Assembly: GCA_013112545.1 (NCBI GenBank)
Contig: JABFGJ010000002.1
Location: 248,001-312,000, forward strand
Length of the DNA: 64,000 bases
Source of the DNA: Bacteroidota bacterium
Lineage (GTDB): Bacteria; Bacteroidota; Bacteroidia; Flavobacteriales_E; Vicingaceae
Direction of reading: 5' to 3'
Part shown: positions 9,401 to 51,020 of the stretch, one piece after another
Layout of the letters: each line of letters begins with the position of its first letter
How positions within the stretch are numbered: the stretch's first letter is position 1
The notes under the pieces: generated by a model
What the model was told of the DNA's origin: nothing
The model's database searches: none
The model's input: the letters and a program-made list of their open reading frames with translations, nothing else
Made by a program: the position numbers and the translations under genes

Positions 9401-11146
9401 CAAGGTGTCATTTATCGTATTGTTGTCACCAACAGCATAAATCCAGAAGTCAAAAGAATTTATAGAATCTATTACTAAAGTATCACCTGTATTAAACGTA
9501 TAATTTGCAAGCCCATTTGGAGAGATTGTCGTATTCATTGTTTCAATAATTGGGCTGCCACCATTTAATGAATATGAAACTTGAATCGTGTTTATTGCAT
9601 TTCTACTGTTGTTTTTTATTGTTATTTCTGGGTTTGTAATGTAGTAGCCACAAAGGTTTTTTGCAACCCTATTGGGGTAATTAATTTTTACAAGCGAAAC
9701 ATCTGTATTTGAATTATCATTAATGCTTATTGCATCAATTCCTACACCAAAAGAATTTGCGGTAGTACCAGAAGTAAAAGCAAAACGGAAACGCACATTA
9801 TTATTCCCCACAAGGTTACTTAATACAATACTTGCACGCTTCCATCCTTCTGAATTCCCTGTCCAAGCTGTGGAAGCAGAATTATTATACCAGTTATAAG
9901 TGTTGCTTGTGCCGTTTAAAATTTGCCAAGAAGTCCCTGAATTTGTAGTATATTCTATGCGAATAGTGTCATTAATGGATGATAAATCATAATTCAACAA
10001 AAATTCTAATACTGGAGTTCCTGAATAACTTGAAAAATCAAAACAAGGAGAGGTATAAAAAGAGGCCTCGTTTGTATTATAAAACCCATTTGGGTTGGTG
10101 TATAGAGCTAATGACCCAGCATTTGTTGCAAATTCATTGTTTGTTGAACTTCCAATCTGCCAAGAACTATTTATGCCTGAAGATCTCCAATCATTCGCGT
10201 TTGCTTCAAATGAAGTAGAATATGAACTAGAATTTAAATTGCTTTTCGTTATTGTTTCTCTAATGGTGTCATTTAAATTGTCAGAATCTCCTGCTAGGCT
10301 ACAAAATGCTTTTAAATTATAATTTCCTAATGCTGACAAATTTATTAGTGGAGTAAACTGGTGATAAACAGAATCACCTGGGGCTATATATGGTATGGTT
10401 TCATTAACAACACTCTGTTGATCTAATTGATAGGAAACGCTAATGTTTTTAGCGGTATCTGCACCAGCATTTTTATACAGCACGCTCACTTGCTCCGAAG
10501 CATTTAGTCCACAGTCTGAATAAGGGGTTTCTATTTTGATACAAGCCATGTTATAAGCTACTTGTCCAAAAATTGTAACATTGTCAATTCCTACATACCA
10601 ACCCCAGTCATTTCCATCAAAATAGGTAAATCGCACCTTACAATTTGCATTTTTGAAAGCTGATATATCAATATTAGCATGAGGAAAACGAACCAAACAC
10701 ATACCAGTAAGGTAGTTTCCACAATCATCTCTAGTAACACTTTTTACCAAATGCCAATTCGAACCATCAAAAACTTCCACTTTAAATGAATCGACTAGAC
10801 CTGCGACATGTCTATAATTATAATCAAATTCTAGCGTTGATTTAAAAAACTGGGAATTATCAAAACTTGGGCTTGTTAAAACAGCTCTATTGTTGGTTGA
10901 AGTGCCTCCTAAAAAGTCATCATCAAAAAAAGCCATAGCTGTTCCATCGAGATTTTGACTGCCAGCATGAGTGCCTAAAGAACCATCTATACCAAAAGAC
11001 CATGCATGTGAGCCAGAGACCGCATTGTTTGACCAGCCTGTTGGTAAAGTTGCTGCATTAAAATTTTCTTGAAATAAAATTTGCTGAGAGAAGAGTAAGC
11101 TAAATGAAAGCAAAAATAGGCCAGTGCTTAGGATTGATTTTTTCAT
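6443..11146 (-). CDS. Very large secreted protein with T9SS type A sorting domain
   Basis: The 1567-residue protein starts with a clear signal peptide (MKKSILSTGLFLLSFSLLFS). It contains several repeats of a jelly-roll, MAM-like or choice-of-anchor-J-like module (recurring patterns such as W..R, FDG.NWH, I.IDD/DNVT) alternating with CARDB-like or Ig-like segments about residues 215-300, 490-570 and 790-850. It ends in a T9SS C-terminal sorting domain (about 1490-1567, beginning VDIYPNPTTNELNFS). It should be exported and attached to the surface or released; adhesion or polymer binding is plausible but unproven. No catalytic motif was recognised. It stands alone, with non-coding DNA on both sides. 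Confidence 0.85.
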   Translation of the reverse strand: MKKSILSTGLFLLSFSLLFSQQILFQENFNAATLPTGWSNNAVSGSHAWSFGIDGSLGTHAGSQNLDGTAMAFFDDDFLGGTSTNNRAVLTSPSFDNSQFFKSTLEFDYNYRHVAGLVDSFKVEVFDGSNWHLVKSVTRDDCGNYLTGMCLVRFPHANIDISAFKNANCKVRFTYFDGNDWGWYVGIDNVTIFGQVAYNMACIKIETPYSDCGLNASEQVSVLYKNAGADTAKNISVSYQLDQQSVVNETIPYIAPGDSVYHQFTPLINLSALGNYNLKAFCSLAGDSDNLNDTIRETITKSNLNSSSYSTSFEANANDWRSSGINSSWQIGSSTNNEFATNAGSLALYTNPNGFYNTNEASFYTSPCFDFSSYSGTPVLEFLLNYDLSSINDTIRIEYTTNSGTSWQILNGTSNTYNWYNNSASTAWTGNSEGWKRASIVLSNLVGNNNVRFRFAFTSGTTANSFGVGIDAISINDNSNTDVSLVKINYPNRVAKNLCGYYITNPEITIKNNSRNAINTIQVSYSLNGGSPIIETMNTTISPNGLANYTFNTGDTLVIDSINSFDFWIYAVGDNNTINDTLYNYKIDNSIYGNTQIPFLTTFDNAAPNGWSRIGFTLGSIKSFNFTSSFSYTSKLFGGFGNVGKYLYPSSTTAGELTSPIIDLKNLDNPQLSFWFFNLGNANSSYYLRIEIFVLETNTWHQALPIMNYKTNVFKEEWNEYLYDLDSFKLKHIKIRFKYPTITPNYAFVFDHIKVYDKIKQDVGIIALEQKKLCFNQPTKVVATIINEGSASINSNSINISYNYNGGALQTETIPDSIGIDDTLQYELLIQPASGTKVKAEAIINLFSDCIISNDTITSDSLEMNGLYYFEDFENEILEYNRYDNKLKTPLKSGITLKAANNSRWYVTNGAIVRRGRGPSTDHTTSTSLGKYLILSQASFSTRSTSSFTLPCVDLTNSIEPFLSFWVHKTNHEKLYIDVFDGQNWHLRVDSVVNRLQTSYQEPWKLKVISLKDTSFIGKVVSIRFSGMVDHSPISIDDMSVNEGFKYDLTLSNLTSPVTNNCKSTSVPLIVNIKNVGLDTIDFTQNMCRLVVNLTGVITQNYLDTIANNQFNQGLPLLPGDSMDVLIDTINMNISGDYFISSTILINNDFNPSDNYKSQFFKIKPNRLGSISVTYKKTQQNNNCDTRNAYIYLHDVIGIPQWQFYQNGTWIDLSGETDTVLVVSVQNEGFYRANLCNQIISDSVFISGMVSLSQLAGDSIVVNCGDTAEFKVYPINSSMDSLYWYNSPTSTTPFFVGDTVFKKRNSPVNSNTTDTIYVEGLLKSYIKVGSYTINPNIHSKVILNSDHEVRFQINNPLVFYSIEMEYNSATAGTGVIQIVDLSINNIIFNKVYNLPASPTDRWEELVLDLSFSPGSYALTYMKSLSSIKNVYTYSHPVNPMIHYDSSMIITSRFSYNANWKTEEVCRTNRTAIPLYADCLVGIENDNLDVPTVDIYPNPTTNELNFSLNKEYHSIEVYVLNISGSIVSRSKFDNKSNFNLNIEGVKGLYFVRLILNNKENIIKKVVKH

Positions 11147-11250: not shown

Positions 11251-11272
11251 AATAAATACTTGATTTGTATAT

Positions 11273-11353
11273 GTTGCCGCAGGGTTGCACTTGTTCGCCG
11301 ATAGGAGGAAACCACTACGGAGCGTTTACTAATGAACATCCTTCGGTGCTAGT
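11273..11353. repeat. Island repeat unit, leftmost copy
   Basis: This ~80-bp unit begins GTTGCCGCAGGGTTG, contains GGAGGAAACCACT.CGGAGCG and ends CATCCTTCGGTGCTAGT. Near-identical copies lie at 12186-12265, 12658-12736 and 12878-12956. It is GC-richer than the flanking DNA. This copy sits between the promoter region of the T9SS gene and the end of yoeB, so it marks the left edge of the island. Confidence 0.8.
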
Positions 11354-11355
11354 TA

Positions 11356-11400
11356 TTATTTGCCGACGACCGAAGCCGGAACACTTATTTTCCTGATCCT
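11356..11400. repeat. 45-bp boundary sequence, copy A (abuts yoeB stop)
   Basis: The segment starts TTATTTGCCGACGACCG and ends TTTTCCTGATCCT one base before the yoeB stop codon. It matches 18182-18226 at 39 of 45 positions by eye; that copy overlaps the stop codon of an unrelated gene. Two different genes ending in the same sequence point to a cassette boundary or recombination site. It has not been tested as such. Confidence 0.75.
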
Positions 11401-11401
11401 T

Positions 11402-11656
11402 TCAATAATGATATCTACATTGAAGAACTCTTATTTGTCCTCCCTCCATTCGATAAACTAAACGATGTTCTAAAGTGATTCTTCTTGACCAATAACCTGA
11501 TAATTGATGTTTCAGTGGTTCTGGAGAACCTGTTCCCTTAAATGGATCACGGTCAATGTCTTTCAGTAAATTATTTATTTTCTTTAAAATTTTCTTGTCG
11601 TGATTTTGCCAATATAAATAATCATCCCATGCTTGATCTAAAAATACTACCTCCAT
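11402..11656 (-). CDS. yoeB: YoeB-type toxin (ribosome-dependent mRNA endonuclease)
   Basis: The 84-residue protein is the toxin of a type II toxin-antitoxin pair; YoeB cleaves mRNA in the ribosomal A site. Sequence and length match Escherichia coli YoeB closely, including DDYLYW, KPEPLKH-like SPEPLKH, SGYWSRRI, EHRLVY and the C-terminal CRYHY. The known catalytic residues fall at the same numbers: E46, R65, H83 and Y84. It is the second gene, with its start overlapping the yefM stop by one base (TAATG), which couples toxin translation to antitoxin. Its stop abuts the 45-bp boundary sequence shared with another cargo gene. Confidence 0.95.
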   Translation of the reverse strand: MEVVFLDQAWDDYLYWQNHDKKILKKINNLLKDIDRDPFKGTGSPEPLKHQLSGYWSRRITLEHRLVYRMEGGQIRVLQCRYHY

Positions 11657-11907
11657 TAATCTAATAAATCTTTGACTTCTCCTTTGCCGGCTTTATCCAT
11701 TTCAATGGCTTTTAATAAGCGTTCTGCATTTTTTGGACTACTCAATAAATGAAAGGTTTCTTGCATGCTGTTGTATTCACTTTTACTTATCAATACCATA
11801 TCGTTTCCTTTTGGTCTTTTGATAAATAAAGGTTTTCTCATACGAAGTACTTGCTCAAAATAGGCTTTCATATTTTGCCTAAAGTCGGTTAGTGTTGTTA
11901 TATCCAT
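11656..11907 (-). CDS. yefM: YefM-type antitoxin (Phd/YefM family)
   Basis: The 83-residue antitoxin neutralises YoeB and represses its own promoter. The N-terminal DNA-binding half is typical of the family (TTLTDFRQNMKAYFEQV, then KRPKGNDMVLISKSEYNSMQ), and the C-terminal half is the helical toxin-wrapping tail. It is upstream of and overlaps yoeB. A consensus -7 element and a TGTACA-type operator lie just upstream (11934-11967), the arrangement known for YefM autoregulation. The pair is carried as cargo beside remnants of a tyrosine recombinase. Confidence 0.93.
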   Translation of the reverse strand: MDITTLTDFRQNMKAYFEQVLRMRKPLFIKRPKGNDMVLISKSEYNSMQETFHLLSSPKNAERLLKAIEMDKAGKGEVKDLLD

Positions 11908-11967: not shown

Positions 11968-12265
11968 TTTATTAATTTTAATCTTTACTATTCTTTCTAA
12001 AACGGATAAAACTCATCGGTATCTTTCTGTAAATCTTCTGTATTATTCACTAATCCCAATTTAACGTTTAAATGAGCTAAAAACAAGAAACAAAAAAACT
12101 CAGCTCAGCAGGGTTAAACATGTTAGCCGCTAGGAGGAAGCCGCTGCGAAGCTCACGGTATTTTATGAAACTTCAGAGTTGACATGTTGCCGCAGGGTTG
12201 AACTTGTCCGCCGTTAGGAGGAAACCACTGCGGAGCGTTTACTAATGAACATCCTTCGGTGCTAG
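11939..12265. repeat. Long direct repeat, copy 1
   Basis: This ~327-bp segment is repeated nearly exactly at 12411-12736 (offset 472, later 471 after a one-base deletion). It contains, in order, the yefM operator, a recombinase 3' tail on the minus strand, and two GC-richer repeat units. In copy 1 it is joined to an intact yefM-yoeB pair; in copy 2 the pair is missing. Confidence 0.85.
11997..12053 (-). pseudogene. 3' remnant of a tyrosine recombinase, copy 1
   Basis: Read on the minus strand, this encodes LVNNTEDLQKDTDEFYPF and a stop. It matches the last 18 residues of the intact recombinase at 19741-20679 (LVNHTEDLQADIDQFYPF) at 14 of 18 positions. The match begins right after the position of the catalytic tyrosine. 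Upstream the frame becomes unrelated sequence. It is a gene end left behind by deletion or recombination. Confidence 0.8.
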
Positions 12266-12353
12266 TGAGCACATCCTACTTTTCAGAATAAAAGCGGTGT
12301 TCTATATGCTCTTGATAATCTACTTAGAGCTGCTAAACTTAAAATGATATAGA

Positions 12354-12410
12354 GTTGCCGCAGGGTTGCAAACCACTGCGGAGCTTTAAACTGAACATCC
12401 TGCGGAGCGC
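12354..12410. repeat. Short palindromic island repeat
   Basis: GCCGCAGGGTTGCAAACCACTGCGG is an imperfect hairpin here (arms CCGCAGGGTT and AACCACTGCGG around GCA). It is followed by GAGCTTTAAACTGAACATCCTGCGGAGCGC. Parts recur at 12739-12781, 12957-13001 and 13207-13275, and a perfected version at 14584-14606. Confidence 0.75.
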
Positions 12411-12736
12411 ATAATCATAAATGTACAGGAGGTTGTACATTTATTAATTTTAATCTTTACTATTCTTTCTAAAACGGATAAAACTCATCGGTATCTTTCT
12501 GTAAATCTTCTGTATTATTCACTAATCCCAATTTAACGTTTAAAGAGCTAAAAACATGAAACAAAAAAACTCAGCTCAGCAGGGTTAAACATGTTAGCCG
12601 CTAGGAGGAAGCCGCTGCGAAGCTCATGGTATTTTAAGAAACTTCAGAGCTGACATATTGCCGCAGGGTTGAACTTGTCCGCCGCTAGGAGGAAACCACT
12701 GCGGAGCGTTTACTAATGAACATCCTTCGGTGCTGG
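12411..12736. repeat. Long direct repeat, copy 2 (solo operator, no TA genes)
   Basis: This is the second copy of the 11939-12265 segment. Its left end joins a palindromic repeat at ATAATCATAA, where copy 1 continues into the yefM promoter. The operator TGTACA-N6-TGTACA is intact (12422-12439), but nothing of yefM or yoeB remains. Confidence 0.85.
12469..12525 (-). pseudogene. 3' remnant of a tyrosine recombinase, copy 2
   Basis: This is identical in translation to the remnant at 11997-12053 (LVNNTEDLQKDTDEFYPF, stop). Both lie in the same orientation as the intact gene at 19741-20679, with their 3' ends to the left. Confidence 0.8.
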
Positions 12737-13001
12737 TTGTAAACCACTGCGGAGCTTTAAACTGAACATCCTGCGGAGCGCAGTTGAACTTGTCCGCCGC
12801 AGGGTTAAACATGTTAGCCGCTAGGAGGAAGCCGCTGAGAAGCTCACGGTATTTTAAGAAACTTCAGAGCTGACATGTTGCCGCAGGGTTGAACTTGTCC
12901 GCCGATAGGAGGAAACCACTGCGGAGCGTTTACTAATGAACATCCTTCGGTGCTGGTTGTAAACCACTGCGGAGCTTTAAACTGAACATCCTGCGGAGCG
13001 C
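12581..13001. repeat. Tandem ~200-bp compound repeat, two copies
   Basis: Units 12581-12781 and 12801-13001 (period 220) are nearly identical. Each contains AGGGTTAAACATGTTAGCCG, a CTTCAGAGCTGAC segment, the ~80-bp island unit and a partial palindromic unit ending CTGCGGAGCGCA. The second copy runs straight into the coding tail at 13004. Open frames on the minus strand inside these units are by-products of the repeat. Confidence 0.8.
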
Positions 13002-13003
13002 AT

Positions 13004-13168
13004 GATATCCCCTCTGAAGTTTCTCTAAAAGAGGAATCTGCAATAGAACAAAACAGATTGTTTAATGAGTTGGACGAAGATGACCGACAAACGGTTCTAA
13101 CGATCGTTGATAAAATGCTGACCAATAAAAAGTTTAGCAACTTCTTTCAGGAAAATATTGCGAAATGA
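13004..13168 (+). pseudogene. C-terminal tail of an XRE-type regulator, copy 1
   Basis: A 54-codon coding remnant ends in TGA. It reads EVSLKEESAIEQNRLFNELD, then ...RQTVLTIVDKMLTNKKFSNF... This resembles the helical tail that follows the helix-turn-helix in many Bacteroidota XRE regulators. The DNA-binding domain is absent: the frame begins exactly where the preceding repeat unit ends. A terminator follows at once, so the 3' end is original and the 5' part has been replaced. Confidence 0.65.
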
Positions 13169-15397: not shown

Positions 15398-16243
15398 TTA
15401 CTGTTCTTTTTTAGTAGTTGTATTTGCATCTTTTTTCGATTTCACTTTTTCATATTGTGTTCTCACTTTTTGAACAGCTTCATCAAATAATGCATTATAT
15501 TCTTGTGGATCAATATTTTTCTGTTTTTCTCCAGCAGCGTGTTTAAATGGTTTATGATATTCCAAAGGAGTATAAGTTCCATCATCATTTTTCTTTCCGT
15601 GTGTAGGTGAATTTTCATCCATAGTTGGATGTAGTGCCATTCCTAAACTAATTAATCCCTTTATTTCGTTATCAGAATTAACATACTCATCCTCCTTCTC
15701 AGTGACAAAATCTTTTTTAAGTTGAATAGCCTGCTCTACAGTCTTATTTGATGGTTTCATAGAGTGCATAAATTGATTTTTGTTCCATTGATTTCCTCGA
15801 AATGGATTATCTGCTCTTTTACTTCCTTTAATGATTGCCTTTACTTGTTTTTCTGTCATTGCTCCAGACTTTAGCTCTGGTTCAAATGCTTTTCTTATAA
15901 TTTGCTCATGTACTTTTGTTGGCCAATTTCCATCAACATCTACTTGTGAAATTGGGTTATTAAAAAATACTGAAAAAGGAGACCATTCGGGACCTTTTTT
16001 AAAGTCAGGATCAACATTCCATCTTCTACCTAACCTTGTGTCTAAACCATAATCTCCAAAAGAGTAATTATTTCCTGAACCACTTACTTCATCATTCCTC
16101 TCTTGTCCTTGGAAGCCATAGGTGTAAGCATTTAGGCAAAAAATTGACTCGATGTCATTCTTTTCTAGAGACTTACCAAAAAAATTGGCATTCACCTCTA
16201 AAGCTTCCTTTGGCTCGTAATATGTTAGTTTAAGGCATCCCAT
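15398..16243 (-). CDS. Orphan Rhs-core protein with metal-dependent phospholipase C-like C-terminus
   Basis: The start chosen is the ATG at 16243 (MGCLKLTYYEPKEA), an N-terminus that to my knowledge is common on orphan Rhs-core proteins of Bacteroidota; an ATG 12 bases upstream is possible. Residues ~38-105 are the Rhs-associated core (AYTYGFQGQE, DTRLGRRWNVDP, FFNNPI, DVDGNW). The C-terminal domain has H112, ADN about 144-146, HSM at 160-162 and H205-x3-D209-x5-H215, the order of Zn ligands in bacterial phospholipase C. A membrane-damaging effector is therefore likely. It has no signal peptide and no Rhs barrel, so it may be an unexpressed toxin cassette awaiting recombination. Confidence 0.65.
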   Translation of the reverse strand: MGCLKLTYYEPKEALEVNANFFGKSLEKNDIESIFCLNAYTYGFQGQERNDEVSGSGNNYSFGDYGLDTRLGRRWNVDPDFKKGPEWSPFSVFFNNPISQVDVDGNWPTKVHEQIIRKAFEPELKSGAMTEKQVKAIIKGSKRADNPFRGNQWNKNQFMHSMKPSNKTVEQAIQLKKDFVTEKEDEYVNSDNEIKGLISLGMALHPTMDENSPTHGKKNDDGTYTPLEYHKPFKHAAGEKQKNIDPQEYNALFDEAVQKVRTQYEKVKSKKDANTTTKKEQ

Positions 16244-16268
16244 TTCTATGTGCAAGATACTAATTTTC

Positions 16269-16520: not shown

Positions 16521-17024
16521 GAAAAAAGTTCTTTAATTCAGTTTAAATTAATATTAATTAGTAAGTTGATGAATAAAGTTAGATTAAAAGCGTTTGACAT
16601 AAAAAGCTATACTTTTTGAATTCAATTACTTAGAAGGAATGTAAGTCGGACAGATTTTTACAAATCTTTTTTTGTCCTATATCGCTTATTTAAACAGTTC
16701 AATTTAAATGCCTTACAAAGGTTCAATATGACATTAATATAAAGTACCCACAGCCAACAAAACCCAAGTTGTTTGCTAAGGCAAAAAATCCTTTGTGTTT
16801 TCTTGGCTTCCGCTTATCTTCCCAAGGCTTTTTAAACCCCATTTTTTGAGCAACCCAATAACAGCACTTGATTACAAAAGCTGTTCCTTGTCCAAGAAAA
16901 ATAAGGTTTAAAAAGCTGCCAAGCTAAGTAACATAATGTGCATTATAGAACTTCTCACGCCTTGTGATTTTTGATTTTGTTGTTCGGGTCAACTATAATG
17001 TACATTATGTAAAATAGCTCCCTT
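16521..17024. other. Non-coding stretch with inverted repeats
   Basis: No gene is supported. It contains AAGGCTTTTTAAACCCC (16824-16840), repeated in the same orientation at 17861-17876. Near the right end, a TAACATAATGTGCATTATAG block (about 16928-16947) and a CTATAATGTACATTATGTAA block (about 16994-17013) form an inverted pair, each half itself palindromic. The second block sits just beyond the stop of the 88-residue gene. Confidence 0.5.
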
Positions 17025-17291: not shown

Positions 17292-18181
17292 AAAATATAT
17301 TTATTTATCAATCTATTTCTGTGTGATAACTCGCTCCATTCCTTGCTCCAACGCATTGGCAACGCAAAAGCAAGTCATATCCGTCTCTGATTATCACACC
17401 CAAATAGATTCTTTTTTTTGATAGTCCAAATGAAAGAAAAAATGTTGACTACTGAAAAAAACGAACTCCATTTTAATGTAGAAGCTTGGGAAGTGCGTGG
17501 ATTTGTGCGGATTCTATATTAAAATGGAGTAATCCAAACGTTGCACTTAATTCAATCGAAGCAAAACACTTAACAGAGTGCGGAAGGGTGCTCCGAACTC
17601 TCTTTTCTTTAAAAACGGATGTTCATTTTAAAACGAGATGCAAGGAAAAAGCGCCTGCGGCTAAAAAGGCTGGGCAGTGGCTGCAATGAGTGAAGTGCAA
17701 CGGAACGGATTGCGGACATTGACCAAGCTTCAGCGAGCCGCCTGCGAGTGGAACAAGGGTGGGGCAAAAGAATAGATTTGCCAACAGCAAAGATATTTTT
17801 GCCGCTATGTAGGGGTTTAAAAAAACGGAGATACAATTAAACAATAAACAGGAGGATCGAGGCTTTTTTAAACCCCGGACGAGGCTAACCGCTTTAATCG
17901 CTAGAGCGAAGCGGAGGCAAATAAACAAGGTCAGCCGAAGCCCGCAGAGACCCGCAGGCTCGCTAAATTATGGGCAAACGGTGGGTTTTTAGCTTTTGCA
18001 ATATCTTCGATTTGCAAGGGCTAAAAACACAGAGTAATTTGCCGTGACAACTGACCAAGGAACGCAATAAAAGTGACAAGCTGCGAAGTGCAACGAAGCA
18101 CCCGAAGGGTTTTGCAGCTTATTTTTTTTACCTTTAAAAAGTCAACACTTTCAAAAAATGGGCTGCAAAAGCTTGGCGGTT
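17292..18181. other. Long GC-richer non-coding block
   Basis: About 890 bp with no convincing gene, richer in GC than its flanks. It holds an inverted repeat GGGGTTTAAAAAAA (17812-17825) / TTTTTTAAACCCC (17864-17876), an ATTTTAATGT / TATTAAAATGGAG pair (about 17471 and 17516), and a partly palindromic segment near 18078-18122 (AAGCTGCGAAGTGC...TTGCAGCTT). It ends at the 45-bp boundary copy at 18182. The density of hairpin-forming segments without coding sense suggests a structured RNA or a recombination/transfer region. Confidence 0.45.
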
Positions 18182-18226
18182 TTATTTGCTGACGACCGAA
18201 GTTGGAACACCGATTTTCCTGATTCT
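18182..18226. repeat. 45-bp boundary sequence, copy B
   Basis: It starts TTATTTGCTGACGACCG and ends TTTTCCTGATTCT, overlapping the first two bases of the stop codon of 18225-19136. It matches copy A at 11356-11400 at 39 of 45 positions. Copy A ends one base from the yoeB stop. Confidence 0.75.
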
Positions 18227-19136
18227 ATGATTTCAATAATTTAGATGCTCCTTCAGATAATGTTTCAAGAATGTAAGATGCTGTTTCTTTATTTATTACT
18301 TGGTCTATCGCCAAATCAATAACCTTTCCTTTTAAAAGCTGAATCCAAGTTTTTTTCTTCAATTTCCCTGACAATGACTTAAGCTCTTCGATCTCTTCAA
18401 AAATGATCTCTTGACCATATCCGAGTTTTTGTAGCTTTTCAATTACGATATCTACCTTTTCATTCAGTTCCTTCTCATGTTTCAGAGCTCTCTTTTTCTC
18501 TGTGGATTTCTTTTTTCTTTCAACATATGAAGCTCCTTTAACGGTAAGTTGTATCATTTGCTTTTTGTTGTATTCATCTGCAACTGCTACATAACCTTTT
18601 TTATAAAGACTTTCAGCTAATTCAAACGGTTCTTTATTCCGATAAGAAATGTCGCCTAATTCAAGCAAATATTCAATCGAATAAAAATGGTCGTTAAAAA
18701 CAAGATAGAGTTTTGCTAAAATATAATCTGTTTTATCCTGAATTGTATTGATTTTATCTTGTGGTTTCTCATGATTGTTATTTAAAATCAAAAGATAATC
18801 CTGGAACCTTTGTAGTGATTGCAACTTGCTATTGATGATATCTTTGTACATTTCATCTTTATCATCCGTATTTTTTAACCAACCGTAGCTAAATTCAAGC
18901 CTATCACTCAAACGGGTTAATGAACTGTATTTAAAGTTATCTACTAAAAATTCTGGTATTGGCTTAAGGTGTTGTTTAATACATTTTTCTACTTTCTCTT
19001 CCCATTGATCAGTTAACTTAAAAATGTCATCTTCTGATTTTACATTGGGATATTTTAGAATGTCTCTACAATCAGACTTAAGCAACTCCAATTCCTTACA
19101 AATTGCTTCGTAACCTTGTGTAAACTGATACTTCAT
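18225..19136 (-). CDS. Hypothetical helical protein, cargo next to ORF6N gene
   Basis: A 303-residue soluble protein of unknown family. The N-terminal ~190 residues are helical (MKYQFTQGYEAICKELELLK...). A central part (about 165-210, including YKKGYVAVADEYNKKQMIQL then TVKGASYVERKKK) resembles a winged helix. Then comes a Lys-rich linker, a helical hairpin and a C-terminal segment (ASYILETLSEGASKLLKS). It follows the ORF6N gene by 3 bases on the same strand, so the two form an operon. Its stop codon overlaps the 45-bp boundary sequence. A regulatory or phage-conflict role is possible but unproven. Confidence 0.6.
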   Translation of the reverse strand: MKYQFTQGYEAICKELELLKSDCRDILKYPNVKSEDDIFKLTDQWEEKVEKCIKQHLKPIPEFLVDNFKYSSLTRLSDRLEFSYGWLKNTDDKDEMYKDIINSKLQSLQRFQDYLLILNNNHEKPQDKINTIQDKTDYILAKLYLVFNDHFYSIEYLLELGDISYRNKEPFELAESLYKKGYVAVADEYNKKQMIQLTVKGASYVERKKKSTEKKRALKHEKELNEKVDIVIEKLQKLGYGQEIIFEEIEELKSLSGKLKKKTWIQLLKGKVIDLAIDQVINKETASYILETLSEGASKLLKS

Positions 19137-19139
19137 TGT

Positions 19140-19685
19140 TTACTCCTCGTTTTTTCGTTTGTAACCAATTGCCTCTCTATTTTTTTGATCTAATTCCTGT
19201 TGTTTAACAGCTTCCAATTGCTTCAAGTATTTAAAAATTAACTCAATGTCCTTGCTATTGCTTCCTGTTTCTTTTCTAATCTTTTCCAACTCAGATAAAA
19301 TGTCCTTATGAGTTAAAAGCATTTCTCTCATTTTAGTAAAAGTCCTAACAATTCGAATATTCATTTCAATAGCTCGATCGCTATTTAAAACACATGAAAG
19401 CATTGTTAATCCTTGTTCAGTAAAACAAAAAGGAGCATATCTCAATCCTTTTCTATCTTCATTGGAGGTCACATTTTGTGATCTCCAATTTTCAAACTCT
19501 TCCTTATCCATTTCAAACATAAAGTCTTCTGGAAATCGTTTCATATTTCTTCGGACTGATTGTTTTAAAACTCTTGTTTCTACTTCGTAAAGCTCTGCTA
19601 AGTCTCTGTCAAGCATCACTTTTTGACCTCTTATTTCGTAGATTTTACTCAAAATAACTTCTTCTGGAATACTTACTTTACTCAT
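19140..19685 (-). CDS. ORF6N-domain DNA-binding protein
   Basis: The 181-residue protein has the ORF6N domain at residues ~10-95 (EVILSKIYEIRGQKVMLDRD, LAELYEVETRVLKQSVRRN, RFPEDFMFEM, then GLRYAPFCFTEQGLTMLS), followed by a coiled tail. ORF6N and the related KilA-N domains are found in phage and mobile-element proteins and are thought to bind DNA. Length is typical of stand-alone bacterial copies. It lies upstream of the 303-residue unknown gene (3-base gap) and downstream of the second recombinase, in the same transcription direction. Confidence 0.9.
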   Translation of the reverse strand: MSKVSIPEEVILSKIYEIRGQKVMLDRDLAELYEVETRVLKQSVRRNMKRFPEDFMFEMDKEEFENWRSQNVTSNEDRKGLRYAPFCFTEQGLTMLSCVLNSDRAIEMNIRIVRTFTKMREMLLTHKDILSELEKIRKETGSNSKDIELIFKYLKQLEAVKQQELDQKNREAIGYKRKNEE

Positions 19686-19740
19686 AATATTTTATTGTGT
19701 TTGCTAAATTAATGTTATAAATTGGAGATTACATCCACTT

Positions 19741-20679
19741 CTAAAACGGATAAAACTGGTCTATATCTGCCTGCAAATCTTCTGTATGATTTACCAAATA
19801 TCCTTCCGTTGAACTGACATATCGATGACCTGCAAAATATTGAACTTGCCTTAAATTAAATTGCTTCAACCAATGAGTAATGACAGAAGTCCGAACTTGT
19901 TTGAAGTTGATAAATTCTTTGTTTTGTTCTCTTATTTCTTGACTCAATCGCTTCCAAACCTCTTTACAATCTGTTCTTACATTGCATTTTCTACCAAATG
20001 GTGGTGAACTGATAAATAGGTTTTTAGTTTCTTCTTTGCAGAATTTCAACAGCTCATTTCTTGTTGTATATTGGTATTCCATCAACTCAATAATCTGGTT
20101 TGATTTCAATTCTAAAATTCGTTCATTGCTCTTTCTTCCTCCTCCAATAAATACTTTTCCCTCTTTCAATTTCAAATCATTTAGTTGCAAATTATTTACC
20201 TCAGGAGTTGTTAAACCTTGATTGATCATTAAACTTAAAATGGCTTTATTTCTCGCTTTTCCTATTCGATAACTTTCAAACCAATTTCGATTTGCTCGCT
20301 CATCTTTTTCATCAGGAACTTTGTAATCATTGTAGATTTTGTCCAACTGTTGTTTGTCTAAAATCGGATAAAGCTTTTTGGTTTTTGTTCCTCTAATTTT
20401 CAGATGTTGAACTGGATTTTCTGTTCGATGGCCACCATCAATTTGAAAGTTAAAAAACTGCTTGATTACATTCAATCTGATATTTCTGGTTTTATTCTCC
20501 TGTCCTCTTTTTTGTAAGTGGCCTAAATAACTCAAAACTTCTTTTGCTGTGGCATTTTCGATTGTAGTTCCATCTTTGTCCAACCAAGCTAAAAAATCAA
20601 GCGCATAAGTGTTGTAATGACTTACAGTTGACTTACTTTTTCCATGACTTTGCAAGTGTTCTTTAAAACTATTCGCCAT
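19741..20679 (-). CDS. Second tyrosine recombinase of the pair, catalytically degenerate
   Basis: The 312-residue protein has an N-terminal SAM-like core-binding domain (about 1-90) and a C-terminal phage-integrase fold. The box I arginine is replaced by threonine (GLTTPE, T157) and the box II histidine by lysine (FKQVRTSV, K260). R263, H285 and the nucleophile-position Y294 (TEGYLVN) remain. It may act only as a partner of the canonical recombinase, or be a structural subunit. It overlaps the upstream recombinase gene by 11 bases. Its last 18 codons occur twice more at 11997-12053 and 12469-12525. Confidence 0.85.
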   Translation of the reverse strand: MANSFKEHLQSHGKSKSTVSHYNTYALDFLAWLDKDGTTIENATAKEVLSYLGHLQKRGQENKTRNIRLNVIKQFFNFQIDGGHRTENPVQHLKIRGTKTKKLYPILDKQQLDKIYNDYKVPDEKDERANRNWFESYRIGKARNKAILSLMINQGLTTPEVNNLQLNDLKLKEGKVFIGGGRKSNERILELKSNQIIELMEYQYTTRNELLKFCKEETKNLFISSPPFGRKCNVRTDCKEVWKRLSQEIREQNKEFINFKQVRTSVITHWLKQFNLRQVQYFAGHRYVSSTEGYLVNHTEDLQADIDQFYPF

Positions 20680-21607
20680 TTTCTTTTGGAATTAAATGAG
20701 TATAAATTTGAGTTGATTCTAATGTTGAATGACCTAAAAACCGTTGAATTTTCTGCAATTCCATTCCATTCTGAAGTAAATGAGTAGCAATGGAATGCCG
20801 CAACGTATGTAAACCAACTTCTTTTTGCTGTAAACTGGTATTTTCAACCAATACAATCAATTTTTTTAATCTGCCATACAAGCTGGATCCTGCCATTGAT
20901 TTTCCAAACATTCCAATAAACAAACTACTTTCTTTTTGACTTTTAATTAACTGAGGTCGATAATCATAAATATATTCCTGTAAAATTTTAGAACTCGATT
21001 TGCTGAACGGAACTAATCTTTCCTTGTAGTTTTTCCCTTTCCGAACATGTAAAATTCTTCTGTCAAAATTCAAATCATCTAAGATCAAACTGCTTCCTTC
21101 TGTTCTTCGTAATCCACAACCATAGAAGACGACCAACATGGCTTTATCTCTGGCGTTAAATGCTTCTTGTTTGGGATGTGGGGTTTCTTGGTTGGTCACT
21201 TCAAAAAGCTGTTTGATTTCTTCCTGAGTTAATACCGTAAAATTTCCCTTGTCTAGTTTGAGTTGTTTTAATGTTACTGGTGGAATTCCTCTTGTTCCTT
21301 TATGAATTAAAAACTCATAAAACTTTTCTAAAGCTTGAATTTGCTGATTGATGTAAACATTTCCTAAACCACCACCACGCCTTTGATTTGGTCTTGAACT
21401 GATGTGATTGAAGTAATTTTTATAATCTTGGGTTTGGATTTGATTGATTTGGTTGCAGTCCTGCTGCTCTAAAAAGTGTAGAAATTCCCTGATGTTGTGC
21501 GGCATATTGTAAACCGTTTGAGGATTATAACCCAAGATGTCTAACCACTCTGTAAAAGCAATTTGCAAATGTTCAAAGCTTGCGTTTTTGAGGACTAAAA
21601 ATTTCAT
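20669..21607 (-). CDS. First tyrosine recombinase of the pair (XerC/D-like, canonical)
   Basis: The 312-residue site-specific recombinase/integrase cuts and rejoins DNA through a 3'-phosphotyrosyl link. All catalytic positions are seen: R167 (GLRRTE), a Lys in VRKGKN, HTLRH (H267, R270), LGH (H293) and Y302 (IYTHL). The N-terminal core-binding domain spans about residues 8-105. Its start follows the ATPase stop directly (TAAATG) and its end overlaps the second recombinase, so the three genes are translationally coupled. It is not the housekeeping XerC or XerD, given this context. Confidence 0.93.
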   Translation of the reverse strand: MKFLVLKNASFEHLQIAFTEWLDILGYNPQTVYNMPHNIREFLHFLEQQDCNQINQIQTQDYKNYFNHISSRPNQRRGGGLGNVYINQQIQALEKFYEFLIHKGTRGIPPVTLKQLKLDKGNFTVLTQEEIKQLFEVTNQETPHPKQEAFNARDKAMLVVFYGCGLRRTEGSSLILDDLNFDRRILHVRKGKNYKERLVPFSKSSSKILQEYIYDYRPQLIKSQKESSLFIGMFGKSMAGSSLYGRLKKLIVLVENTSLQQKEVGLHTLRHSIATHLLQNGMELQKIQRFLGHSTLESTQIYTHLIPKENGE

Positions 21608-23236
21608 TTACGATACCTTTTTAGCTTCTTCTGTGAACTTGTCCTTTATTTTGCTGATTCTCTTTTTCTTAAGTGGTTCATTCTCATTTTGAACTACTGG
21701 CGAACCTGTGAACCTCTCCAACTTTTTAAGGTTTTCATCTAATACATTACTTACATGGTTCTTAAGCTCTTGAAACTCTTTATAACTAACAATCTGATAA
21801 TTATAAGCTGTTCCCTTTTTGCCTTTCACTTTCTTAATGTAGAAATTACTTAACAGACTTAAATTGTATCTTTTCTGATTGCTTGGATTGACTTTAAACG
21901 CTCTTCTAATTTCTTGATTGGTAAACTCTTTTTTATTTTCTTGTTCCAAATAACTTTTAACAGCTTCTAAATAATCTCTGCAAGCTCCGCTCAATTCATC
22001 ACTTTTTCTTAGCAGTATTATTTTCATCAATTTGTTGGCTTCTTCTACATCTTCCAAAGTGGTTTCTATAAATACTTCTCCTGTTTCTTCATCTACTTTT
22101 TGTATTCTTTGATGTTGATGGTAAAAGGTAATGGCTTCAATAAATTGTAAATAATGGTTGTTGCTTCTCCTTGGTTTCAAAACTTCATCAGGTATATTCA
22201 ACAGCTCTGCAAATGGATTTACGATTGCAATGGGTTCTAGTATTCGTTGACAATTTTGCAATAATTCTTTAGCTTGATTTTCTGCTTCCTGGTTGATTTT
22301 TCTTGCACTAATTTTCCGCTGATAATCCATGATTCGTTTATCCTGTTCCTTGCTTTCATCGAGGTAAATTAAAAAGGATCTGTTGGCGTTATCTTCATAA
22401 ATCTGTTCTTTCGTTGTACATCCACTAACACTTACTGGACCTTCTACCACTAAATGAATGGTTCTAGTTTCTCCTTTGGTGTTCTTATGTGCAATGGTTT
22501 TCGAGATTCGTTTTTTAGATTGTAATTCTCGTAATGGATAAAGTACATTTTCAGCTCCATCTAAATCTTCAATTAATATGAGTTTGTGTTTCAGTTCTCT
22601 TTGTCCGAAGTAGTAAAAAGCATTCTCGCTTAAAGTTGTAATTTCTATTCTATCTTCATCAGGCATCAACTCTCCAACTTTTTCTTGCAAATGTGTTTTT
22701 CCTGTTCCGCTACTTCCTAAACTCACAATATGCAAAGGTTGCTGTCTCTTTCTGCTCGTAAAAATTAAAAACATAATCAAGCGATTAATCTCTTCTCCAA
22801 CAACGCCACTTTTTCCAATTAAATCATTTGTGTTTTCTAATAGTTTGGGAGTTTTTAAAAATACTTCTGCTGCTTTATGTTCCTCTGCTGTTAGCTTTGG
22901 ACTTTCATATTGTTGGCTTTCAGTTTCCTTTATTTGTTTGATTCTGTATTCTTCTAATGTTCCTGTTAGTTCAGCAATACTTGCAGCAATTATACTTGTT
23001 CCAATCTCCAACTTTTCGGCTGTTCTTCTGATCAGTTTCTCACAAGCTAAATCATTGTATAAATCCAAATTATGGCGAACTGGTGGAACACTACTATCAT
23101 TCAGCTCAATTTTTAATGTGCTTCGCATTCTGTCTAACCCATCCAATTTTATCCCACCCAAAACGGTTAGTTTTAAGATGTCGTTTTTGTAAATCAGATT
23201 TTCAGGATTATTGGTGTTGAAGTTTTTTGCTGTCAT
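21608..23236 (-). CDS. P-loop ATPase of the recombinase element
   Basis: A 542-residue protein with Walker A GSSGTGKT (174-181) and Walker B LILIEDLD (219-226), then a sensor-like region (VSGCTTKEQIYEDNANRSFL, about 276-296). The C-terminal third has a winged-helix-like region (FTNQEIRRAFKVNPSNQKRY). It resembles the ATPase half of primase/helicase-like proteins that I recall beside recombinase pairs in Bacteroidota, but no CHC2 zinc finger is present here. It is the first gene of the ATPase-recombinase-recombinase operon and probably prepares or holds DNA for recombination. Confidence 0.75.
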   Translation of the reverse strand: MTAKNFNTNNPENLIYKNDILKLTVLGGIKLDGLDRMRSTLKIELNDSSVPPVRHNLDLYNDLACEKLIRRTAEKLEIGTSIIAASIAELTGTLEEYRIKQIKETESQQYESPKLTAEEHKAAEVFLKTPKLLENTNDLIGKSGVVGEEINRLIMFLIFTSRKRQQPLHIVSLGSSGTGKTHLQEKVGELMPDEDRIEITTLSENAFYYFGQRELKHKLILIEDLDGAENVLYPLRELQSKKRISKTIAHKNTKGETRTIHLVVEGPVSVSGCTTKEQIYEDNANRSFLIYLDESKEQDKRIMDYQRKISARKINQEAENQAKELLQNCQRILEPIAIVNPFAELLNIPDEVLKPRRSNNHYLQFIEAITFYHQHQRIQKVDEETGEVFIETTLEDVEEANKLMKIILLRKSDELSGACRDYLEAVKSYLEQENKKEFTNQEIRRAFKVNPSNQKRYNLSLLSNFYIKKVKGKKGTAYNYQIVSYKEFQELKNHVSNVLDENLKKLERFTGSPVVQNENEPLKKKRISKIKDKFTEEAKKVS

Positions 23237-23388: not shown

Positions 23389-23724
23389 ATGACTATTTCT
23401 GAACGTATTCGATTAAGTAGGCAACAAAAAAATATCTCTCAAAAAGATTTAGCTGAACTTGCCGATGTAAATCTTAAAAGCCTTTCTCGTTATGAATTGG
23501 GAACTAGTATCCCTCCGGCTGATGTGATTAAGAAATTGGCGGATGCCTTAAAGGTTTCTACTGATACACTGCTTTCTGATGATAAAGTAGATATTCAAGA
23601 TATGGATTTATTGAAAAAGTTTGAAGTGATTCAAAACATGACTGGAGAAACGAAACAAACCGTCATCCATTTAATTGATCTAGCCATCAGAGATTTTAAA
23701 GCTAAACAAGCTTACGCTTCTTAA
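23389..23724 (+). CDS. XRE-family transcriptional regulator
   Basis: The 111-residue protein has a Cro/C1-type helix-turn-helix at residues ~3-60 (ISERIRLSRQQKNISQKDLA, ELADVNLKSLSRYELGTSIP), followed by a helical dimerisation tail. It is divergently oriented from the ATPase-recombinase operon, with a 152-bp gap, and is probably its repressor. A small gene follows 2 bases later. Similar C-terminal tails without the helix-turn-helix are left at 13004-13168 and 13268-13453. Confidence 0.88.
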   Translation: MTISERIRLSRQQKNISQKDLAELADVNLKSLSRYELGTSIPPADVIKKLADALKVSTDTLLSDDKVDIQDMDLLKKFEVIQNMTGETKQTVIHLIDLAIRDFKAKQAYAS

Positions 23725-24685: not shown

Positions 24686-25978
24686 TTAACTTCCTTTTAG
24701 TGTTTTAGCTGCTTTATCAGTTGCTCCTTTAGACTTATCTTTATTCCCAAAAACATCACGCCATAAACTATGTCTTTTAGGGCTACCCATTTCTTTCGCA
24801 ATCTTTTTATGTTTTCGTCCCTCTGCCCATTTTCCTCCCTCATGAGCTTCTGCATCTTGAATAGTATGTAAAGCAACTCCAATCTCTTGTTTTTGGTCTT
24901 GTGTTAAATCATCTTCCTTAATACCTGATAATCGTTTTATTACTTTGTTAGCACCTTCTATTGGTGTTTCCTTTTCATTTTCATCAGTAAAAACACCACC
25001 ATTTAATGCTCTATCTACTGCCACATCTTCTGTAATGGTTTCAAAATAAGCCATCATTGAATGAATAGTAACTCCCGGGCCATTATCAGATTGAGATCCA
25101 TCCATTTCACTATTTTGATATTTCTTTTCATTTTTAGAAAATTGTGAAGGACTATATCCATTAAACATTCCTACTATTTTAGAAGCACTTCTAATTAAAA
25201 AATTAGGATTGTCGGCATATGTTGAAGCATAGTATGCAATATCTTTAGCGGTTTCTTTTTTAAAACCTGCTTTCATTAAGGCTTTTCGAGTCATTTTATA
25301 ATGAACCCAAACCGCCCATTCTCCATCAGGGTCAGAAAACGCAATTGGATTATTAAATGAATAACCATATGGTGAATACTGAGCCCCTCTTGCTGCTTGT
25401 GGGTCAACAGCAAACCATCTTCCTAAACGTGGGTCAAGCATTCTCGCCCCAAAATCATAGCTATTGCCCGAACCTTTGACTTCATCATCCCTTTCCATAC
25501 CGTTAAACCCATAGGTGTAAGCCGCTTCATCTCTTTTTGCTAGTGCAACTTGTGTGTTTGGGTATTTTCTAATTACCTTTATTTTCACAATTTGCAAATC
25601 AGAAGAGTAAGGTGTTTTTACAGCTTTGTTAAATCGAATATCCAATTTCAATTTTCCATTTACTGTCAAAGTTTGTATGGCAGCTCCGGTATAATCTACA
25701 AATTCAAAATATTTATCCGATGCACTTCTTATTTGCCCACTAGTAGTTCCATTTAGGCTAAGTGGCTTCACAATAGCACCATCAAAATAAGCAGCGCAGC
25801 TTCTATATTGCGTATTGTCTATATGCACTTCTATGGTATAAATTCCGTTGGCATCTAAATTAGGCATAATTTCAGATAATGGAGCAAACATTTCTACTCT
25901 AAAATATTCATTCTCCGTTTGGTTTACAAAAAACTCATCCATGTAATTTTGACCATAAATGTAGCTTAACCCTTCCAA
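24686..25978 (-). CDS. Truncated Rhs-family protein with phospholipase C-like C-terminal domain
   Basis: The 430-residue frame begins at a TTG lying inside a palindrome (25973-25995); the ATG at 25942 is an alternative. Either way the upstream Rhs repeat region is missing. Residues ~150-222 are the Rhs-associated core (AYTYGFNGME, DPRLGRWFAVDP, SFNNPI, DPDGEW). The C-terminal domain has H226, ADNP (D256), H306 (IHSM), H371-x3-D375-x3-H379, a metal-ligand order like zinc phospholipase C. The same domain type ends the Rhs gene at 15398-16243. A 5'-truncated or orphan toxin cassette is the best reading. Confidence 0.65.
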   Translation of the reverse strand: MEGLSYIYGQNYMDEFFVNQTENEYFRVEMFAPLSEIMPNLDANGIYTIEVHIDNTQYRSCAAYFDGAIVKPLSLNGTTSGQIRSASDKYFEFVDYTGAAIQTLTVNGKLKLDIRFNKAVKTPYSSDLQIVKIKVIRKYPNTQVALAKRDEAAYTYGFNGMERDDEVKGSGNSYDFGARMLDPRLGRWFAVDPQAARGAQYSPYGYSFNNPIAFSDPDGEWAVWVHYKMTRKALMKAGFKKETAKDIAYYASTYADNPNFLIRSASKIVGMFNGYSPSQFSKNEKKYQNSEMDGSQSDNGPGVTIHSMMAYFETITEDVAVDRALNGGVFTDENEKETPIEGANKVIKRLSGIKEDDLTQDQKQEIGVALHTIQDAEAHEGGKWAEGRKHKKIAKEMGSPKRHSLWRDVFGNKDKSKGATDKAAKTLKGS

Positions 25979-50299: not shown

Positions 50300-51020
50300 A
50301 ATCTTAAGAGAGATATTTCGTATTCTTTCTGCGCTAATCAGCGTAATCTGCCGGAGAAATTTTATGAGTTGAATAATTCCCGCTAATCTCGCAAATCTTC
50401 GCGGATATTAAGAGTGATATTTCGTATTCTATCTGCGCTAATCAGTGCAATCTGCGGGAGAAATTTATGAGTTGAATAATTCCCGCTAATCTCGCAAATC
50501 TTCGCAGATATTAAGGGAGATTAATTTTGTATTCTTTCCGTGTATATCAGCGTAATCTGCGGGAGAAATTTTATGAGTTGAATAATTCCCGCTAATCTCA
50601 CAAACCTTCGCGGATATTAAGAGTGATATTTCGTATTCTTTCTGCGCTAATCAGCGTAATCTGCCGGAGAAATTTTATGAGTTGAATAATTCCCGCTAAT
50701 CTCGCAAATCTTCGCAGATATTAAGGGAGATTAATTTTATATTCTTTCCGTGTATATCAGCGTAATCTGCGGAAAAAATATTTATGGGCTTTATAATTCC
50801 AGAGTTGATTAATTCCCGCTGATCTCACAAATCTTCGCAGATATTAAGGGAGATTAATTTTGTATTCTTTCTGCGCTAATCAGTGCAATCTGCGGGAGAA
50901 ATTTTATGAGTTGATTAATTCCCGCTAATCTTGCAAATTTACGCAGATATTAAGAGAGATATTTCGTATTCTATCTGCGTTAATCAGTGCAATCTGCGGG
51001 AGAAATACTTTGAGTCTTAT
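50300..51020. repeat. Seven-copy degenerate tandem repeat (~104 bp)
   Basis: About seven copies of a ~104-bp unit fill the ftcD-hutG gap. Each contains TCTGCGCTAATCAGCGTAAT (variants), CTGCGGGAGAAATTTTATGA, TTCCCGCTAATCTCGCAAAT and CTTCGCAGATATTAAG. Two subtypes alternate in part: one with GATATTTCGTATTC, the other with GATTAATTTTGTATTC. A related single copy is at 55830-55920. The unit holds GC-rich complementary pieces (CTGCG.../...CGCAG) that can pair. Confidence 0.85.

Follow-up and report, generated by a model that had tools for sequence, protein, structure and literature searches.

The 64,000-nucleotide window analysed here (contig JABFGJ010000002.1, positions 248,001 to 312,000, from a Bacteroidota bacterium of the Vicingaceae) contains a candidate mobile element. 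Its order on the minus strand is an RHS tip with the gene following it, a divergent helix-turn-helix (HTH) gene, a P-loop ATPase gene (AAA), two tyrosine recombinase genes (rec1 and rec2), cargo genes, a 45-bp repeat, a chain of noncoding hairpins and an orphan RHS gene. A second copy of the 45-bp repeat lies behind the toxin gene yoeB. The two copies (win1 behind yoeB, win2 in the element) agree without gaps at 39 of 45 positions in a pairwise comparison, and 8e-7 pairs this alike are expected by chance, given the base composition of the window and both orientations throughout it. The stop codon of yoeB occupies 11402-11404 and that of a 303-aa open reading frame (ORF) 18225-18227, the latter with a two-base overlap with win2. 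BLAST similarity around the pair is limited to 11356-11409 and 18182-18240, and the flanking genes are wholly different. The original prediction, made from the sequence of the window, that two unrelated gene groups end in the same 45-bp sequence at their stop codons thus holds, in the match as well as in the positions. A 33-base core pattern derived from both copies occurs at two places in the window, where shuffles expect none, and the same two are its only occurrences in the 3.27-Mb genome (reversed control, none).

The border of an exchangeable cargo

Copies in relatives were collected with patterns and with a profile. The 33-base pattern, allowing up to three mismatches, gave one further copy (L003); apart from the own genome, one relative out of 394 matched. 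A broader pattern gave five places in 46 family genomes, all in the own genome (G000) and in a genome of another genus (G005), where the control gave none. A profile (R1) built from seven collected copies and run over the 46 family genomes matched eight places with E < 1e-3, namely two in G000, three in G005, two in G036 and one in G026. Weak matches inside coding genes were dropped (L080, which is the G026 place, L081 and L082), and L083-L085 (E 0.07-0.1) were left out of the copy set without inspection. Counting L007 from a named metagenome-assembled genome, this genome-wide, mismatch-tolerant search amounts to two copies in the own genome and eight with relatives.

In all eight copies the repeat follows a stop codon at a distance of 0-52 nt, on the strand of the gene. 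The preceding genes belong to six families: the 303-aa ORF, DUF1016, YoeB (three copies), DUF3024, an HTH gene (before the single copy of L046) and a HigA-like HTH antitoxin, the last being our reading of an HTH_3 protein beside a Gp49-family protein. Five copies (win2, L038 in G005, L045, L046, and L007, whose contig begins inside rec2) lie within an element with AAA and/or recombinase genes, and two (win1 and L050) adjoin a rec2 tail. The remaining copy (L089) has neither recombinase genes nor a rec2 tail, and stands behind a toxin-antitoxin pair between citrate synthase and enolase (names assigned by eye). The copies are thus neither mostly remote from recombinases nor tied to one gene, the patterns by which the original prediction would have recognised an ordinary dispersed repeat. 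At L090, positions ~6.9-9.7 kb, a ~2.8-kb insert in the citrate synthase/enolase gap of G005 holds the toxin-antitoxin pair, the core of the 45-mer and other direct repeats; it is absent from four of four other genomes examined, in which the gap is only a short intergenic stretch.

The genes between rec2 and the repeat differ from element to element: ORF6N and the 303-aa protein in the window, DUF1016 in L038, RadC, DUF1016 and a YefM/YoeB-like pair in L007, and RadC, ORF6N and DUF3024 in L045, always with the 45-mer at the far end. PADLOC lists two of these families as defence candidates, DUF1016 (PDC-S02) and ORF6N (PDC-S05). Between the window and L038, rec2 is 84% identical in DNA and the noncoding sequence behind the 45-mer 82%, and similarity between their cargo genes does not extend past 12 bases. 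The DNA that G000 and G005 have in common at this locus consists of the element blocks; elsewhere in 100 kb of G005:C14 there is a single match, of 65%, to window 10570-11046. An element without cargo on an Aureibacter plasmid has alignable sequence ~55 bp behind the rec2 stop, as good as which none of 1000 shuffles was, and in the same test L039 and L040 align partly and L041 does not. Given this alignable sequence in a cargo-less element, and flanks that are alike around unlike cargo, the best view is that a fixed 3' region begins, on its gene side, with the 45-mer. The repeat is probably the first conserved block of the hairpin-rich noncoding sequence, with cargo inserted between the rec2 stop and the 45-mer.

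No match to the 45-mer above chance was found at the 5' end of the element or at the rec2 stop, and none between the cargo genes of the window or L038; the profile matches once per element and never inside cargo. The 45-mer therefore appears to be internal to the element rather than its integration end. The original prediction had proposed a recombination or attachment site bounding exchangeable cargo: the comparison supports a border of the exchangeable cargo of a tyrosine-recombinase element, and speaks against an attachment site, since there is one copy per element and the exact junctions described below sit in rhs genes.

Copy win1 is the remnant of an older element, comprising a rec2 tail, yefM-yoeB and the 45-mer. 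Its two tail remnants lie beyond yefM-yoeB and are 83% identical to window 19739-19797, the 3' end of the recombinase gene. The same cassette recurs at an unrelated locus (L050), again with a rec2 tail. A dispersed repeat family (..GCCGCAGGGTTG..GGAGCG..) at window 11271-11354 and 12108-13006 adjoins the relic. The features of the locus are collected in Table 1; far from them, window 50301-51015 holds a tandem repeat array with self-matches at ~100-bp steps.

Table 1. Features of the element and of the relic in the window
Feature	Position	Strand	Basis or remark
45-bp repeat, copy 1 (win1)	11356..11400	-	one base behind the yoeB stop
yoeB toxin gene, relic cargo	11402..11656	-	Pfam YoeB_toxin
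yefM antitoxin gene	11656..11907	-	Pfam PhdYeFM_antitox
rec2 3' tail remnant	11995..12053	-	62/65 matches to rec2 of G005; the window's own rec2 is less similar
Second rec2 tail remnant	12467..12525	-	copy of the first; the repeat that holds them is 97% identical
Orphan RHS gene, start MGCLKLTY, putative displaced tip	15398..16255	-	
14-bp direct repeat GCTTACACCTATGG in the orphan RHS gene, putative right junction	16116..16129	-	
Hairpin of the type at 18110..18170, inverted orientation	16827..16916	+	
Inverted pair of dif-like sites (16924-16947, 16994-17017), hairpin	16922..17019	+	covariation, match to family dif
First 3' noncoding hairpin	18110..18170	-	CATTTTTT..AAAAATAAG boxes in pairing stems
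45-bp repeat, copy 2 (win2)	18182..18226	-	overlaps the stop of the 303-aa ORF; runs on into the noncoding hairpin region
303-aa protein, cargo	18225..19136	-	no family match in Pfam, PADLOC, NCBIfam, PHROGs
ORF6N protein, cargo; PADLOC candidate PDC-S05	19140..19685	-	Pfam, PADLOC
rec2, XerC/D-like tyrosine recombinase	19741..20679	-	domain and family profile matches (Pfam, NCBIfam)
rec1, XerC/D-like tyrosine recombinase	20669..21607	-	domain and family profile matches (Pfam, NCBIfam)
AAA P-loop protein	21608..23236	-	longer relatives with CHC2, Toprim and DnaG_N primase domains
Divergent HTH repressor	23389..23724	+	RstR family by NCBIfam
RHS core and C-terminal tip at the element 5' end	24686..25978	-	TIGR03696
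14-bp direct repeat GCTTACACCTATGG in RHS core codons, putative left junction	25509..25522	-	

Probable insertion into rhs genes, and the hairpin region

Plasmids of Aureispira, Aureibacter, Leptospira and Salmonella have comparable gene orders that include one or two tyrosine recombinases (four of 27 matching records examined), and two of these plasmids carry exact tandem insertions in rhs genes. In the Aureispira plasmid NZ_CP133672.1, a 7652-bp unit is present twice, base-identical, with TACGAG (6 bp) at all three junctions, in codons of an RHS core motif. In Aureibacter pAT2, an 8169-bp unit is present twice, likewise exact, and its junctions, which fall in the RHS codons YGF, read TATGGATT (8 bp); past this 8-bp junction, the displaced RHS gene is too unlike for homologous exchange. 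The tandem duplications lie at L118 9582-24891 (6-bp junction) and L120 7826-24171 (8-bp junction), and their units combine an RHS tip with primase-helicase and recombinase genes.

In the window the corresponding ends would be the 14-bp direct repeats, which lie in the RHS codons AYTYG and are found at both ends of L038 as well; they sit in coding sequence that is itself conserved, and an empty site was not seen. With these as its ends, the element, intact in appearance, would span ~16.12-25.52 kb (~9.4 kb). It would have inserted in an rhs gene together with an RHS tip of its own, so that the earlier tip now lies further downstream, and rec1 and rec2 are the presumed agents of integration. 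Orphan RHS genes in the window, L038, L006, L007, L041 and L046 begin with MG[CG][LRQ]KL[TS]Y, apparently a new start for the displaced tip, supplied by the 3' end of the element. The AAA protein is called primase-helicase-type because of the domains carried by its longer relatives (Table 1), and the short form in the window is presumably of this type too. Its relatives, with E up to 1e-60, occur in ten of the 46 family genomes, and a comparison with PDB sequences gave no match. A viral origin was considered and rejected: exact pattern scans of viral_contigs gave no matches, rec2 and AAA have no relatives there, and AAA has no match in the phage collection. An 18-mer gave four matches in the viral scan, about the chance number. 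A comparison with Rfam gave four matches, all under the gathering scores.

The 3' noncoding region is a series of long inverted repeats, of which one unit recurs in at least eight places, in either orientation. The last hairpin of this unit is formed by an inverted pair of dif-like sites, with 44 nt between the arms. The presumptive chromosomal dif is TATAATTAATATTATGTTAAATAG or close to it, with a match of up to two mismatches in 37 of the 46 family genomes, and dif-like sequences with no more than one mismatch occur at six further places, five of them at these elements. In the own genome the presumptive dif is at G000:C9:148186-148209 and the element is on C2, so that the element lies away from it. 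Pairing of the two arms is supported by covariation among eight sequences, with 97% of cells paired, a score of 0.332 against 0.007-0.094 when slid, and changes on both sides in 21 cells, where shuffles give 8.0; a measure of further pair types was not above shuffles in the same eight sequences. Units like this hairpin are present in L038, L039-L042 and L045, and elsewhere as inverted pairs flanking small ORFs.

How cargo may be joined at the 45-mer

The explanation that we favour, and regard as probable as a whole, is that a divergent HTH gene, a primase-helicase-type ATPase, rec1 and rec2, a cargo slot and a chain of hairpins including the folded dif-like pair would together form one element, which most likely excises and re-enters rhs genes via rec1 and rec2. 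Each element would have a single variable cargo slot, closed by the 45-mer, at which cargo may be joined by recombination. Several observations weigh against it. No crossover at the 45-mer was seen directly, and the core in L089 is accompanied by neither rec2 nor hairpins. Conservation of the 45-mer is about equal to that of its neighbours in the element, and conservation alone is no proof of function. Neither the Aureispira nor the Aureibacter elements give a match to the profile R1, and the Aureispira alignment to the 45-mer is no better than shuffles, so that a resemblance noticed there by eye was rejected. Excision of solo cassettes with fixed, site-specific ends was likewise rejected, as the rec2 tails do not share a common starting point, a picture closer to decay than to precise excision. 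The close-range sample (G000 and G005) is small.

Two explanations of the joining itself appear about equally likely, each falling somewhat short of an even chance. In the first, the 45-mer is an attC-like cassette-joining site, at which rec1 and rec2 join incoming genes, with AGGAA-N8-TTC as its most conserved part. In win1 and L089 the core stands alone, with unrelated sequence to either side, and the positions invariant across seven copies concentrate in AGGAA..TTC, the very part at which L050 and L045 have tandem CAGGAAAA duplications (the copies of L045 and L046 are otherwise diverged, and differ in the distal half). Among win1, win2, L038 and L050, the sites are also nearer to those of the same genome (39 of 46 positions between win1 and win2, 44 of 46 between L050 and L038) than to that of the same cassette (35 of 46 between win1 and L050), despite 94% identity of yefM-yoeB, a pattern that fits exchange at or near the border, on few positions. 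However, win2 and L038, from different genomes, also agree at 42 of 46 positions, informative positions are few in a noncoding spacer that evolves fast anyway, and a joining site would have to act with one copy per element and no partner site at the rec2 stop.

In the second explanation, elements swap cargo by ordinary homologous recombination, using rec2 and the noncoding region as homology arms, the 45-mer being only where similarity resumes. The flanks on either side are long and agree to 72-84% between G000 and G005, and elements can stand in tandem within one genome (L039, L006), but such exchange leaves unexplained the core of L089, which has neither flank, and the first capture of cargo exactly at the border.

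That the 45-mer is a shared transcription terminator or 3' untranslated region element, the alternative raised in the original prediction, is unlikely: every copy does stand directly behind a stop codon on the strand of the gene, but neither window copy has a terminator-like site, with no GC-rich stem followed by a T run, and the fold energies are ordinary (z -1.43 to +0.82). An ordinary dispersed repeat or chance match, for which nothing speaks beyond the short length, is highly improbable against an expectation of 8e-7, two copies in 3.27 Mb and the tie of seven of the eight copies to the same recombinase family.

Known systems and the renewal of rhs toxins

An integron attC site is an oriented sequence behind the stop codons of unrelated genes near a tyrosine recombinase. 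Unlike in integrons, there is no IntI here (with the NCBIfam model integrase_gron, rec1 scores 106 bits and rec2 30.6, against a cut-off of 265), each element has one copy, and the 45-mer folds like its shuffles, unlike the attC hairpin. The integron analogy of the original prediction is therefore not retained.

Among described elements, GInt (PMC5385486) has a ginABCD operon of three integrases and ginD, and direct repeats of 10-17 nt at its ends. It resembles the present element in having a recombinase operon at one end, cargo starting from the stop of the last operon gene and rich in addiction modules, and a conserved 3' end, and perhaps in its short end repeats, for which the 14-bp repeats of the window would be the counterpart. 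By contrast, in place of ginABCD the present element has two recombinases, a divergent HTH gene and a protein of primase-helicase type; it targets the coding sequence of the rhs core and carries an RHS tip; the order of operon, cargo and conserved 3' end is thus shared with GInt, and the ginABCD operon is not. The rAID clusters of Bacteroidales, as PMC12247911 describes them, also combine a tyrosine recombinase, co-oriented genes and a conserved intergenic sequence in a setting of interbacterial antagonism. Here, however, there is no orphan-immunity array with a motif after each gene, but two recombinases with AAA, a cargo of toxin-antitoxin, DUF1016, ORF6N and RadC genes, and one motif per element. 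The foldable inverted dif-like pair in the nearby hairpin recalls CTX-phi attP(+) and dif-using elements (PMC3089051), a likeness that concerns the hairpin and not the 45-mer; the element differs from that type in having its own Xer-like pair and in occupying rhs loci rather than dif.

The displacement of RHS C-terminal tips, in which the old tip gives way to a new tip with its immunity gene and persists as an orphan, is known from PMC5361080 and PMC3482391, and the arrangement in the window resembles it. PMC5361080 attributes the process to homologous or illegitimate recombination and states that evidence for an integrase in effector-module insertion is lacking, and PMC3482391 invokes recombination with toxin cassettes.

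No description of such an element was found among the listed titles and opening lines of abstracts in the open-access literature searched, most subscription papers being outside that search. We tentatively suggest, as a possibility somewhat less likely than either explanation of the joining, that the 45-mer serves for cargo joining in an undescribed class of integrative element, in which two Xer-like recombinases and a primase-helicase would insert into the rhs core, give the toxin a new tip and immunity gene, and carry swappable defence or toxin-antitoxin cargo, with the folded dif-like hairpin serving a single-stranded step. The renewal of the tips of rhs and other polymorphic toxins has so far been explained, in PMC5361080 and PMC3482391, by recombination without a named enzyme. 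The presence of recombinase genes inside the unit that brings the new tip, together with exact junctions in rhs codons, therefore makes integrase-driven tip replacement directly testable, and the 45-mer would mark a second, independent slot in the same element, for toxin-antitoxin and candidate defence genes.
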